Of a DNA stretch of 64,000 nt, positions 41,187 through 45,884 are shown in pieces (the stretch's first letter is position 1; each line of letters opens with the position of its first letter). The notes below the pieces were generated by a model. It saw only the letters and a program-made list of their open reading frames with translations, was not told the DNA's origin and did no database searches. This stretch comes from Desulfofarcimen acetoxidans DSM 771 (GTDB taxonomy: Bacteria; Bacillota; Desulfotomaculia; Desulfotomaculales; Desulfofarciminaceae), in NCBI RefSeq assembly GCF_000024205.1, contig NC_013216.1, positions 1,054,001-1,118,000 of the forward strand, read 5' to 3'. Both the position numbers and the translations under genes were made by a program.

Positions 41187-41639
41187 ATGCGTTGTCCTTT
41201 CTGTGCAAAAATGGACAGCAGGGTTTTAGATTCACGGCCTGCTGACGAAGGCAACTCAATCCGGCGCAGGCGCGAATGCGGCGTTTGCGGGAAGAGGTTT
41301 ACAACATATGAAAAGGTGGACGAGCTGCCCCTAATGGTTGTTAAAAAGGATGGTGGAAGAGAAGTATTCAGTATTGTTAAGCTGCTGTCCGGTATGCTAA
41401 AAGCCTGTCATAAGAGACCTGTCTCCACGGTTTTGCTCGAAGGGATTGCGGGCGAAATTGAAAAAGAACTTCGCAACACGATGGATATAGAAATTAAAAG
41501 TGAGAACATAGGAAGGCTGGTTATGAACAGGTTGCGTGAGATTGACGAGGTTGCTTATATCAGGTTTGCTTCTGTCTACCGTGAATTCCGCGATGTTAAG
41601 AGTTTTATGGAAGAAGTGCAAAGCCTGTTGCAAAAATAA
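41187..41639 (+). CDS. nrdR: ribonucleotide reductase repressor NrdR
   Basis: 150 residues, ATG after AGGAGGAGCC-like TAGGAGGAGCC. The zinc ribbon uses CPFC at 3-6 and CGVC at 31-34; RRRRECGVCGKRFTTYEKV is diagnostic. An ATP-cone (VVKKDGGREVFSIVKLLSGMLKA) senses ATP/dATP. It represses nrd genes when dATP is high. Directly upstream of nrdD, it probably controls that gene and itself. Confidence 0.97.
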   Translation: MRCPFCAKMDSRVLDSRPADEGNSIRRRRECGVCGKRFTTYEKVDELPLMVVKKDGGREVFSIVKLLSGMLKACHKRPVSTVLLEGIAGEIEKELRNTMDIEIKSENIGRLVMNRLREIDEVAYIRFASVYREFRDVKSFMEEVQSLLQK

Positions 41640-41689
41640 CTGAATAATATGGTAGAGTGTTCTTGCTGAAGAATTTGGAGGGAATCTAT

Positions 41690-44600
41690 TTGTTTAATAC
41701 GATAAAAAAGAGAGATGGCCGGGAAGTAAGCTTCGATGATAAGAAAATAACTGATGCAATTTTCAGAGCCGCCCGGTCAGTGGGTGGTGAGGACCGTCAA
41801 TTGGCAATGGAGTTGACCATCGAAGTCTTAAAGATGATTAAAGCCAAGTACAATGGTAATGCCTTTGGCGTTGAAGATGTTCAGGACATCGTTGAAAAGG
41901 TGCTGATAGAAAACGGGCATGCTCGTACTGCCAAGGCCTACATATTGTACAGGGACAGGCGAACCCGCATGCGTGAAGCTAAAGGCGAGTTGATGGATGC
42001 GGTGGAGGAAATCCTGGTTGAGACGAGTAAGGAAAATGCTAATGTGAGCAATTCTCCCTCGGCTAAAATGCTGCAGATTGCCAGCGCGGCCAGTAAGAAA
42101 TACTACCTGACCAGGCTGATTCCCGATGAGCTTTCACAGGCACATACACGAGGAGATATTCATATTCACGATCTGGACTTTTATGGAAAAACCCTGACCT
42201 GCATACAAATCCCTCTAAAAAGATTGCTGGAGGAAGGATTTGATAATGGGCATGGCTATATCAGACCGCCTCAGAGACCAAATTCAGCTACCGCACTGGC
42301 GGCCATAATTCTGCAGAGTTCTCAAAATGATATGCACGGGGGCCAATCTTTTGCTTTCTTTGATCGTGATATTGCCCCTTATGTGGAGAATGCCAGCGAG
42401 GATGAAACATTTCAGGCAATGGAAGCACTGGTATATAATCTCAATAGCATGCACTCCCTCAGGGGGAGTGAACGTATTTGGATATTGGATAAGGAAGAAA
42501 ACCGCTTAAAGACAGTATCTATGGAGGAATTTCATGAGCAGTTTGAAGAAGGTAAGTTCGCTGCCTTGAGCGTTAATTATACTACAGGTAAGACAGAGTT
42601 AAAGGATATTACAGCTTCATTAAAACATAATAATTTTAATCGACTTTTGCAAGTAAAATTAAAGTCAGGACAGAGGGTAGAAGTTACTGATAATCATTCA
42701 ATGATGGCAGTAAATAAAAATGGCGAAATTACTACTGCCGTTCCGGAAATGTTGAGTACAGGACTGACACCTGCACGCTGGCAGGCTGTAGAACAGGTTC
42801 ATACTTATGAACTAAGTAAGTATCCTAATTCATCAAAATATCAACTTAAAGAAATTGTATTAGATGAGATTTTGGCCAGATTCCTGGGTTTTTATGTTGC
42901 GGAAGGTGCGGCAGACGGTTCAACGATATATCTGTCGCTGTTTAATAAAGAGTTGGAAGCGGAAGCCGGTAAAATGTTGGAGCGAATACACCCGGATTTT
43001 TCAACCAGGCTTCGTTATAATGAAACAGGTTCTAGGGATTTAGCTTGCCGGGTGGGTCAACAGTTTGCTGCTTTTGTTGCAGATATCTGCGGGAAAGGTG
43101 CTCAAAATAAAAGAGTCCCATCGGAAATTTTCTTTGCAACGGATAATGTTATTCGTGCTTTTTTAGACGGTTATCTTAGCGGTGACGGTACTGTTGGCAA
43201 GAACCGTGTTGTTGCCAGTTCTGTATCTCAAAAATTAAGGGACGGAATATTTTTATTATTAACTCGCCTGGGACTAATGGCTTCAATGAGTCAGGAAATA
43301 CCTTCTGCTCAGTATGCTGCAGCACGGGAACGTTATAAAATTGCAATTGGTGGTTATTACGCTACCGCGCTTAATCTTTCGGGCCCCAAGCAAGGGGATC
43401 TGGCAAGTTTGTACCAGGTTAGCATTGAGCAATCACGGTATGATTATGAATATCTTCGCCCGTTAATTGCTGACGTGTATGGGGTAGATTGTCGTAATGC
43501 CTACCAATACAGGATAAAACCTGTATATATTGAGGAATTGATTTTTGATCTCAAGTCACGCAGGCTTACCGGTGAAGAAGAGGAAATTATAGTAAAACTG
43601 GCCTCATCTGCCTACTGGTTTGAAGAGGTTGAACGGGTTATTCCTCTGGTTAAATCTTCTCAAAGGCACCATTTGAGAAAGTTGTTGGCTAAAGGTAAAT
43701 TGCCTCGCTATAGTAAATATTTAAGTGTGAGATTCCCTTATGCGGATTGGCTGCCGCGCTTTATGTTATCAAAAGAACTGGGATTCAGAAACCATGGAGG
43801 CATGATTACTAGCGATTGTCGCAGTCCGGAAATGGTTATGCGTTGGGCAAGAGCAATTTTAAATAAAAATTTACAAATCAATAAACTCTTAATAAAACTT
43901 GAGCGCGCTTTGGAAATTAGACCTGTTACTGTTGATTCAATTAAAGAATTACCGTATGAACCGTATGTGTATGATATATCTGTAGAGGGCAATGAGAATT
44001 TTTTAACTTCCCAGGGTATATTTGTGCATAATTCCCGCGCTGGGGCACAGGTACCCTTCTCCTCCCTAAATCTTGGTACGGAGACATCAGAAGCCTCGCG
44101 TAAGGTGACGAGGAATTTGCTTATGGCCTACGAGGCAGGTTTGGGACGGGGAGAAAACCCTATTTTCCCTAATATTATATTCAGGGTTAAAGAGGGAATT
44201 AATTTAAACCCGGATGATCCCAATTATGACCTGTTCAAAGTAGCTTTAAGGGTTGCCTCAAAAAGACTTAACCCCACTTTTAGCTTTATGGATGCCGGCT
44301 TTAACAGTCCTTTTGGGGATCAGGTCAGTTATATGGGCTGCCGAACCAGGGTAATGTCCAACCGGCATGGGCAGGCTGTTACTGATGGCCGGGGCAATCT
44401 GTCCTTCACAACGGTTAATCTGCCCAGGGTGGCTATTAAGGCTGAGCGCAACATGGCAAAGTTTTATCGTGATCTGGAGGATATTTTCGACTTATCCGCC
44501 CGCCAGTTGTATCACCGCTACCAGGTGCAAGCTAAGTTAAAAGTAAGGGATATGCCTTTTGTCATGGGACAAGGCTTGTATATGGATTCCCAGGGCTTAA

Positions 44601-45283
44601 GACCGGAGGATGTCATAGAACCGGCTATTAAGCATGGCACACTGGCTATTGGTTTTATCGGTCTGGCTGAGACACTGACTGCCTTAACCGGCAAGCATCA
44701 TGGAGAAAGCAAGTCGGCCCAAGAAATAGGTCAGGAAATAGTAGCTTTTATGGCCAAAAAAGTTGATGAGGCTGCGGAAAAGTATGATAAGAACTATACT
44801 TTTCTGGCTACTCCCGCGGAGGGGTTGTCCGGGCGTTTCATCAAGCTTGACCGCCGGGAGTACGGGATTATCCCAGGCGTTACTAATAAAGAATATTACA
44901 CTAACTCTTTCCATATTCCTGTTAATTATCCAATCAGCATTTTTGATAAAATTAGTCTGGAAGGAGTCTACCATAAGTATTGTAATGCCGGTCATATCAG
45001 TTATGTGGAACTGGAAGCCCCACCGGTGCACAATATTGAGGCGATGGAGTCTATAGTGCGTCATATGAAGGACAGTAATATGGGCTACGCTGCCATCAAT
45101 TATCCTGTGGATTTTTGTACCGGGTGCAGTCACCTTGGAGTGATCAATGAGGACATCTGTCCGCGCTGCGGTTCACCGTTTATTCGGCGGGTGCGCCGGA
45201 TTACCGGGTATTTGAGTACTGTTGACCGGTTTAATGACAGTAAGGTGTCCGAGTTGAAGGAGCGGATTACGCACAGGTTTTAA
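41690..45283 (+). CDS. nrdD: anaerobic ribonucleoside-triphosphate reductase (class III) precursor containing an intein
   Basis: About 1197 residues from TTG 41690, which lies 7 bp after GGAGGG; the frame opens at 41657. The N-terminal ATP-cone (NTIKKRDGREVSFDDKKI) precedes the barrel domain. The intein occupies 42455-44032, between NLNSMH and SRAGAQVPF. Without it the enzyme is about 671 residues, normal for NrdD. Later landmarks are SYMGCRTRV with a catalytic Cys, the zinc cysteines FCTGC and CPRCG, and the glycyl radical loop RRITGYLS near the C-terminus. It makes dNTPs without oxygen. The ribonucleotide and formate sites are intact. Confidence 0.95.
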   Translation: MFNTIKKRDGREVSFDDKKITDAIFRAARSVGGEDRQLAMELTIEVLKMIKAKYNGNAFGVEDVQDIVEKVLIENGHARTAKAYILYRDRRTRMREAKGELMDAVEEILVETSKENANVSNSPSAKMLQIASAASKKYYLTRLIPDELSQAHTRGDIHIHDLDFYGKTLTCIQIPLKRLLEEGFDNGHGYIRPPQRPNSATALAAIILQSSQNDMHGGQSFAFFDRDIAPYVENASEDETFQAMEALVYNLNSMHSLRGSERIWILDKEENRLKTVSMEEFHEQFEEGKFAALSVNYTTGKTELKDITASLKHNNFNRLLQVKLKSGQRVEVTDNHSMMAVNKNGEITTAVPEMLSTGLTPARWQAVEQVHTYELSKYPNSSKYQLKEIVLDEILARFLGFYVAEGAADGSTIYLSLFNKELEAEAGKMLERIHPDFSTRLRYNETGSRDLACRVGQQFAAFVADICGKGAQNKRVPSEIFFATDNVIRAFLDGYLSGDGTVGKNRVVASSVSQKLRDGIFLLLTRLGLMASMSQEIPSAQYAAARERYKIAIGGYYATALNLSGPKQGDLASLYQVSIEQSRYDYEYLRPLIADVYGVDCRNAYQYRIKPVYIEELIFDLKSRRLTGEEEEIIVKLASSAYWFEEVERVIPLVKSSQRHHLRKLLAKGKLPRYSKYLSVRFPYADWLPRFMLSKELGFRNHGGMITSDCRSPEMVMRWARAILNKNLQINKLLIKLERALEIRPVTVDSIKELPYEPYVYDISVEGNENFLTSQGIFVHNSRAGAQVPFSSLNLGTETSEASRKVTRNLLMAYEAGLGRGENPIFPNIIFRVKEGINLNPDDPNYDLFKVALRVASKRLNPTFSFMDAGFNSPFGDQVSYMGCRTRVMSNRHGQAVTDGRGNLSFTTVNLPRVAIKAERNMAKFYRDLEDIFDLSARQLYHRYQVQAKLKVRDMPFVMGQGLYMDSQGLRPEDVIEPAIKHGTLAIGFIGLAETLTALTGKHHGESKSAQEIGQEIVAFMAKKVDEAAEKYDKNYTFLATPAEGLSGRFIKLDRREYGIIPGVTNKEYYTNSFHIPVNYPISIFDKISLEGVYHKYCNAGHISYVELEAPPVHNIEAMESIVRHMKDSNMGYAAINYPVDFCTGCSHLGVINEDICPRCGSPFIRRVRRITGYLSTVDRFNDSKVSELKERITHRF
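42455..44032 (+). other. Intein with LAGLIDADG homing endonuclease in NrdD
   Basis: 526 residues, in frame. It begins at Ser1 (SLRGSERIW) and ends with GIFVHN, followed by Ser as the +1 residue (SRAGAQ), so splicing rejoins MH to SRAG. Block B contains VTDNHSMM (TxxH), and the penultimate His, final Asn and +1 Ser needed for splicing are present. The central endonuclease has two LAGLIDADG motifs, LGFYVAEGAADG and LDGYLSGDGTVG, about 93 residues apart, each with the acidic residue. Splicing and homing both look functional. Its DNA appears more AT-rich than the flanking host exons, suggesting acquisition. Confidence 0.93.
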
Positions 45284-45395: not shown

Positions 45396-45884
45396 ATGAT
45401 TAGGTATGCAGACATTATCGGTGATTCAATTGTTGACGGTCCCGGGTTGAGAGTCGTTGCTTTTCTGCAGGGTTGTCCACGGAATTGTGCCGGATGCCAC
45501 AACCCTGCTTTATGTCCTGAGGAAGGCGGTAGTTTGATTTCGGAGAAGAGCTTTGCCGAATTATTATTGAATAAATTGACATCGCTAAACTCCGGGATAA
45601 CTTTCAGCGGTGGAGATCCTTTAATGCAGGCAGGGTCCTTATACGATGTTATAGGTTATATTCGCTTACAGAAGCCGGGACTAAGTATATGGGTTTATAC
45701 CGGATATGTTTTTGAGGAGGTCAAGGATCTGCCCGTAATGAAGCTGATTGACGTGCTGGTAGACGGGCCTTTTATTGCTGCGGAAAAAAGCTTGAACCAT
45801 GCTTTTCGTGGTTCATCCAACCAGAGACTTATTAATGTTAAGCAGTCTCTGGAAAATGGTGGGGTGGTTGAGCTGGCTTTTTAG
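45396..45884 (+). CDS. nrdG: anaerobic ribonucleotide reductase activating enzyme (radical SAM)
   Basis: 162 residues, ATG after AAAGGAGAATAACTA. FLQGCPRNCAGCHNP carries the radical-SAM CxxxCxxC motif near residues 31-38; GITFSGGDPLMQ is the S-adenosylmethionine GGE-like motif. It installs the glycyl radical on NrdD. Its neighbour is the matching enzyme, though a terminator lies between. The length is typical. Confidence 0.94.
   Translation: MIRYADIIGDSIVDGPGLRVVAFLQGCPRNCAGCHNPALCPEEGGSLISEKSFAELLLNKLTSLNSGITFSGGDPLMQAGSLYDVIGYIRLQKPGLSIWVYTGYVFEEVKDLPVMKLIDVLVDGPFIAAEKSLNHAFRGSSNQRLINVKQSLENGGVVELAF

Follow-up and report, generated by a model that had tools for sequence, protein, structure and literature searches.

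The nrdD gene of Desulfofarcimen acetoxidans DSM 771, encoding a class III ribonucleotide reductase, carries 526 additional codons within a conserved part of the enzyme. Is this insert an intein, does it still splice and home, and does its host depend on it? We addressed these questions in a window of 64,000 nucleotides, corresponding to positions 1,054,001-1,118,000 of the single 4,545,624-bp contig of the genome (NC_013216.1; G000 in comparisons). Almost certainly, the insert is a canonical class 1 LAGLIDADG homing intein, located at a recurring site of a housekeeping class III reductase and belonging to a family distributed sporadically in Bacillota.

The host gene

The host gene sits between nrdR (upstream) and nrdG (downstream), as follows (window coordinates, all on the + strand):

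41187-41639, +: nrdR, repressor of ribonucleotide reductase genes (TIGR00244, 207 bits, over cut-off)
41657-45283, +: nrdD precursor ORF, 1208 aa, comprising N-extein, intein and C-extein (ORF, Pfam, NCBIfam)
41657-42454, +: N-extein, 266 aa, ATP-cone and first part of NrdD (PF03477, PF13597; 92% identical to the intein-free NrdD of genome G001)
44033-45280, +: C-extein, 416 aa (PF13597; motif location; alignment to T4 NrdD)
44339-44341, +: radical cysteine codon in the C-extein
45206-45208, +: glycyl-radical glycine codon in the C-extein
45396-45884, +: nrdG, activating enzyme (TIGR02491, over cut-off)

Once the insert is removed, the product is a standard NrdD of the PRK07111 type (1026 bits) with an N-terminal ATP cone. 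It displays the features of a class III enzyme, namely the active-site cysteines of TLTC and YMGC, the RITGYL motif, the CxxC pairs (zinc) and the nrdG partner. At the start of the gene (41657-41690), homologues align only from about residue 10-12 (LF-x-x-IKKRDG), and the true start may lie ~30 bases downstream of the annotated GTG.

Anatomy of the intein

At the N-terminal junction, the His266 codon CAC (42452-42454) is followed by Ser1, TCC (42455-42457); at the C-terminal junction, CAT AAT (His525-Asn526, 44027-44032) is followed by Ser+1, TCC at 44033. The limits of the intein are exact, because the junction codons are read directly in the DNA, and the 526 codons between them are in frame and without stops. 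The joined, intein-free site of this gene would read ...AATAGCATGCAC|TCCCGCGCT... The parts of the element are the following:

42455-44032, +: class 1 intein, 526 aa, Ser1...His-Asn526, then Ser+1 (DNA; Pfam and NCBIfam; AlphaFold model and PDB matches)
42455-42844, +: Hint (splicing) domain, N-terminal part, residues 1-130 (model; limits approximate)
42686-42697, +: block B motif TDNH, with T78 and H81 (invariant in 17 homologues)
42845-43405, +: LAGLIDADG endonuclease domain, residues 131-317 (PF14528; I-Tsp061I match over 133-324)
42881-42907, +: LAGLIDADG motif 1, FLGFYVAEG, catalytic E150 (E in 15/17 homologues, G in L086 and L091)
43160-43189, +: LAGLIDADG motif 2, FLDGYLSGDG, catalytic D244 (D in 16/17 homologues, lost in L086)
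43406-43924, +: predicted all-helical domain, residues 318-490 (model pLDDT 86; no relative detected outside this intein family)
43925-44032, +: splicing domain, C-terminal part, blocks F and G, with D507, H525 and N526 (TIGR01443; invariant)
44033-44035, +: Ser+1 codon TCC, probable homing footprint (TCN in 22/22 filled alleles; AGT in sister genome G001)

The insert scores 68 bits against the Pfam Intein_splicing model (curated cut-off 35.8) and 42 bits against LAGLIDADG_3 (PF14528; curated cut-off 22.5), and the NCBIfam models for the N-terminal and C-terminal intein regions are both over cut-off. As originally predicted, we thus find a full-length intein with every splicing residue in place (Ser1, the TxxH of block B as TDNH, the block-F Asp, and His-Asn followed by Ser+1, the signature of class 1), and with both metal-binding acids of the two LAGLIDADG motifs (E150 and D244) retained. 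Judged by these sequence features, chance is no serious alternative as their origin, and the element would be expected both to splice and to cleave DNA; it is well preserved and probably active, an ordinary kind of mobile element.

We propose the following course of events. The nrdD mRNA would be translated as a single precursor, from which the Hint domain would excise itself through an ester at Ser1, transfer to Ser+1 and cyclization of Asn526, with the exteins ligated to give a 682-aa NrdD. Once free, the intein would act as a homing endonuclease, cutting intein-free nrdD near NSMH|SRAG, and repair of the cut allele would copy the intein in. Homing would account for its spread between Bacillota lineages, sometimes together with adjacent bases such as a TCN codon for Ser+1.

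Predicted fold and a helical domain

An AlphaFold2 model of the intein, built with 17 sequences (pLDDT 90.4, pTM 0.86), predicts an intein fold, in which the two ends match mini-inteins at Z ~20 with an rmsd of 1.5-2.2, as expected of a Hint fold. Among solved structures, PI-PkoII (2cw7) comes closest, with Z 37.4 over 380 residues, followed by TliVMA, PI-PfuI (Z 25.6) and PI-SceI. PI-PkoII, which is DNA polymerase intein 2 of Thermococcus kodakarensis, is likewise a full-length class 1 intein consisting of Hint and LAGLIDADG domains, and is the best match also in sequence (E 1e-26). It differs in its host protein and shares only 26% identity over aligned residues; a further difference lies in residues 318-490 of our intein, which lack a significant match when folded and searched alone.

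Folded by themselves, these residues are predicted to be all-helical (pLDDT 86). Searches of PDB, Pfam, PHROGs, phages and viral contigs gave no significant match, and the fold matches for this domain alone were all at background level (with VIA-align as a second look only); it may still prove to have a known fold. Across 388 genomes of the phylum, the domain was found only in the five with this intein and in none of the 383 intein-free genomes. It is absent from the version of the intein on a viral contig (L092), and partly lost in L086. We infer that it may serve in DNA recognition.

The site is uninterrupted in most relatives

The family has just one further genome, G001; its nrdD is intein-free, with a product 92% and 86% identical to the N- and C-extein, respectively. 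In this and other intein-free alleles of relatives, residue 266 is joined directly to residue 793, at NSMH|SRAG. The insertion lies in the conserved NrdD core, as had been proposed. The uninterrupted alleles, sought as a check on the original prediction and readily found (G001, G078 and many others), also refute the notion that the 526 residues are a folded part of NrdD.

Within the order, a homologous intein occupies this site only in G039 and G079, besides D. acetoxidans itself; of the 97 genomes that gave a match, most are uninterrupted there. Across the phylum, the filled junction was detected in 5 of 398 genomes and the empty junction in 151, such that the site is empty in 97% of the genomes scorable at it. 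Two filled/empty pairs fall each within a single genus: G079 (filled) and G078 (empty), with exteins 97.4% identical, and G281 and G329, with exteins 91% identical.

A family of site-matched inteins in Bacillota

The family was searched with a degenerate DNA pattern of the C-terminal junction (His-Asn-[Ser/Thr/Cys]-Arg-Ala-Gly-x-Gln-x-Pro-Phe) in GTDB r220, using one genome per species. This yielded 19 stretches, 18 of which encode NrdD with an intein ending at the same site. In total, at least 22 site-matched homologues are present across Bacillota, one of them on a 281-kb viral contig; the carriers include Syntrophomonadaceae, Syntrophaceticus, Dethiobacter, Tindallia, Negativicutes and others. 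A genome-wide search with peptide patterns derived from the single intein protein gave no matches, because the patterns fell in variable stretches, and tblastn of the intein against phages returned distant endonuclease matches only.

The inteins of Syntrophaceticus schinkii, Dethiobacter, Syntrophomonadaceae and Desulfotomaculum sp. MAG-1144 share the insertion point and the domain order of the D. acetoxidans element, at 44-68% identity. Among 17 aligned homologues, position 1 is Ser in 15, Cys in one and uncovered in one, and T78, H81, D507, H525 and N526 do not vary in any row that covers them. Unlike the D. acetoxidans intein, some relatives lack endonuclease acids: in L086 both are gone, with every splicing residue kept, and L091 no longer has E150. 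The endonuclease has therefore decayed in some members, with the splicing residues unchanged.

The viral-contig version (L092; IMGVR_UViG_3300028886_000035, 281 kb) differs from ours in having Cys1 and, as noted, no helical domain; its nrdD lies in several frames, with a 410-aa intein at the same site. This contig is a possible vector for the intein family. Two further loci are irregular. In a rumen MAG of Selenomonadaceae (L073, JAGABT010000016.1), a site-matched Cys1 NrdD intein is shortened in its C-terminal part, and one in-frame TAG follows its endonuclease region; sequencing error, decay or a natural split are possible. In G039 (L053 / L080, JAJOKN010000090.1), a TGA closes the NrdD frame shortly ahead of the glycyl-radical loop, reflecting either a frameshift in the MAG or a pseudogene.

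Mobility and selection

In the extein tree, the NrdD of D. acetoxidans pairs with that of the empty G001 (support 100/99), and its intein lies closest, with weak support (80/66), to the one carried by G039, which belongs to another family. Synonymous divergence was informative in other alleles. For L079/L088, dS is 0.34 in the intein, half the value of the exteins (0.66); for L081/L085, it is 1.03 in the intein and saturated in the exteins. This contrast indicates transfer after host divergence in those alleles. Their endonuclease dN/dS values, 0.18 and 0.10 respectively, indicate purifying selection on the endonuclease; these estimates belong to the L079/L088 and L081/L085 alleles, dS being saturated in the nearest pair of the D. 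acetoxidans allele. Base composition, another check on the original prediction, gave a divided answer: GC3 is lower in the intein (0.325) than in the exteins (0.49-0.51), but the intein's codon usage distance does not exceed what other genes of the window show.

These data bear on a different view of the element, in which it would still splice but would have lost homing, the endonuclease being a relic inherited vertically and the intein being kept since precise deletion is rare. The loss of both acids in L086, with splicing residues kept, and of E150 in L091 would fit such a history, as would the broad covariation of intein and extein identities (r 0.70), which is as expected under vertical descent. 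Nevertheless, we consider it unlikely for D. acetoxidans: both acids are intact in its own allele, both of the closest pairs that allow the test (neither of which includes it) show purifying selection on the endonuclease, in L079/L088 the host gene is older than its intein, and the site is empty in nearly all scorable genomes of the phylum.

A probable synonymous footprint at Ser+1

We observed a bias in the codon for Ser+1, using search patterns that both admitted either Ser codon family. It is TCN in all 22 readable filled alleles. In a phylum sample of 138 empty alleles, 83 (60%) use AGY and 55 TCN (Fisher p 2e-8 versus filled, a value that is too small because the sequences are related to one another, with a clear direction); within the order, AGY is used in 34 of the 37 alleles empty at this site (92%). 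The codon is TCC in D. acetoxidans and AGT in its sister G001; G039 uses TCG, and its relatives within the same family use AGY. Since two substitutions separate AGY from TCN, this is most naturally read as arrival of the codon with the intein by co-conversion, or as a target limited to TCN, and we regard TCN at Ser+1 as a probable footprint of homing.

Differences between G078 and G079 cluster on the upstream side of the site, within 99 bases of it (p 2e-4). For G281 and G329, it is the C-side flank that stands out, being unusually similar. A long co-conversion tract around the site of D. acetoxidans itself was sought and not clearly found; relative to G001, differences are weakly enriched on the C side (p ~0.02-0.04). 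A bolder reading is that the endonuclease reads the Ser+1 codon, so that alleles with TCN are open to invasion and those with the synonymous AGY are immune, with the helical domain (residues 318-490) constituting a new DNA-recognition module of intein endonucleases. We hold this to be doubtful; if the part on codon immunity were true, silent codon choice would decide which lineages can catch the element. The filled/empty pairs, some within one genus, together with the synonymous footprint make homing, target specificity and loss amenable to testing.

Probable dependence of the host on splicing

The original prediction held that the intein makes dNTP supply dependent on protein splicing. No class I/II large subunit (PF02867) was found in the genome. 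Outside prophage-like regions, it has no ribonucleotide reductase gene other than the interrupted nrdD, which is probably the sole housekeeping one. Two further nrdD genes are present, of the PRK08271 type, both intein-free, with phage-like surroundings and with cysteines and glycine that look intact. Among 113 genomes of the order, just 5 have this type of NrdD. Splicing is probably required for growth, although the prophage genes could take over if expressed. Given these two intein-free genes, the claim holds in a weaker form: dependence on splicing is likely, not absolute.

The prophage loci have features of their own. At ~4.07 Mb (L071:8514-11018, - strand; G000:C1), an ORF apparently fuses a phage-scaffold-like N-terminal region of ~190 aa, without Pfam match, to a full PRK08271-type NrdD, near dUTPase, ThyX and a cluster of portal, minor capsid and terminase genes. 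At ~1.99 Mb (L072:6374-8741; G000:C1), a phage-like nrdG-nrdD-dUTPase cluster adjoins a family A DNA polymerase, a KilAC antirepressor and a recombinase.

It had also been suggested that splicing could tie enzyme maturation to redox state. More generally, the intein could be regulatory, with splicing conditional on oxygen, metal or temperature and gating NrdD maturation in a way that benefits the host. The host enzyme is oxygen-sensitive and is the only reductase outside the prophage-like regions, and redox regulation is known in other inteins (PMC6195587). The known redox-sensing intein, however, acts via a catalytic cysteine that forms a disulfide (PMC6195587). Here the nucleophiles are Ser1 and Ser+1, and the only cysteines of the intein are at residues 198, 212, 346 and 455, with none in the splicing domain (1-130, 491-526). 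A thiol redox switch is thus without basis, and we rejected a redox-regulated intein. Moreover, most relatives, including the closest, are intein-free. Taken together, we find a regulatory role very improbable. That the intein is dead, leaving nrdD non-functional and NrdD activity to the two intact-looking prophage-type ORFs, is scarcely credible, given that all splicing residues are conserved, the frame is open over its full length, the exteins are intact including the catalytic Cys and Gly, and few relatives possess an NrdD of the prophage type.

Known reductase inteins and other sites in NrdD

Inteins in phage NrdD have been reported or suggested for Clostridium phage c-st and Lactococcus phage 949 (PMC3653736), and for Jug phages (PMC12363816). 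Compared by host gene only, these likewise lie in a class III reductase; they differ from the intein described here in residing in phage genes rather than in a chromosomal housekeeping gene. RIR1-type inteins (for example in Pyrococcus, phage SPbeta and Corynebacterium phage P1201) are likewise found in conserved ribonucleotide reductase cores (PMC3653736), but their hosts are class I/II enzymes, another gene family than the glycyl radical class III. RNRdb mentions ~80 curated reductase inteins, not named in its text (PMC2795772). The portion of the genome paper of Desulfotomaculum acetoxidans DSM 771 considered here mentions neither inteins nor ribonucleotide reductase (PMC3035247), and our incomplete literature search returned no report of this chromosomal allele, with NrdD inteins from phages only. 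The present data show that an intein allele of a chromosomal class III reductase is widespread.

NrdD is also interrupted elsewhere in the order. In seven relatives, an intein lies directly before the Cys of TLT|C (spliced residue 182, C79 of T4 NrdD by alignment). These inteins (L055-L060 and L063, from G023, G034, G033, G096, G031, G097 and G087) have Cys1 and Cys+1, and that of G087 is a mini-intein of ~166 aa without endonuclease. A third site, in G008 (L061, G008:C1), lies directly before the radical Cys of YMG|CRSR (spliced residue 369, T4 C290). C79 and C290 are the catalytic cysteines of T4 NrdD, as is well established. With three intein sites, two of them exactly at catalytic cysteines, NrdD is therefore an intein hotspot in this order. 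The intein at the third site seems to end in Gly-Gln rather than His-Asn.
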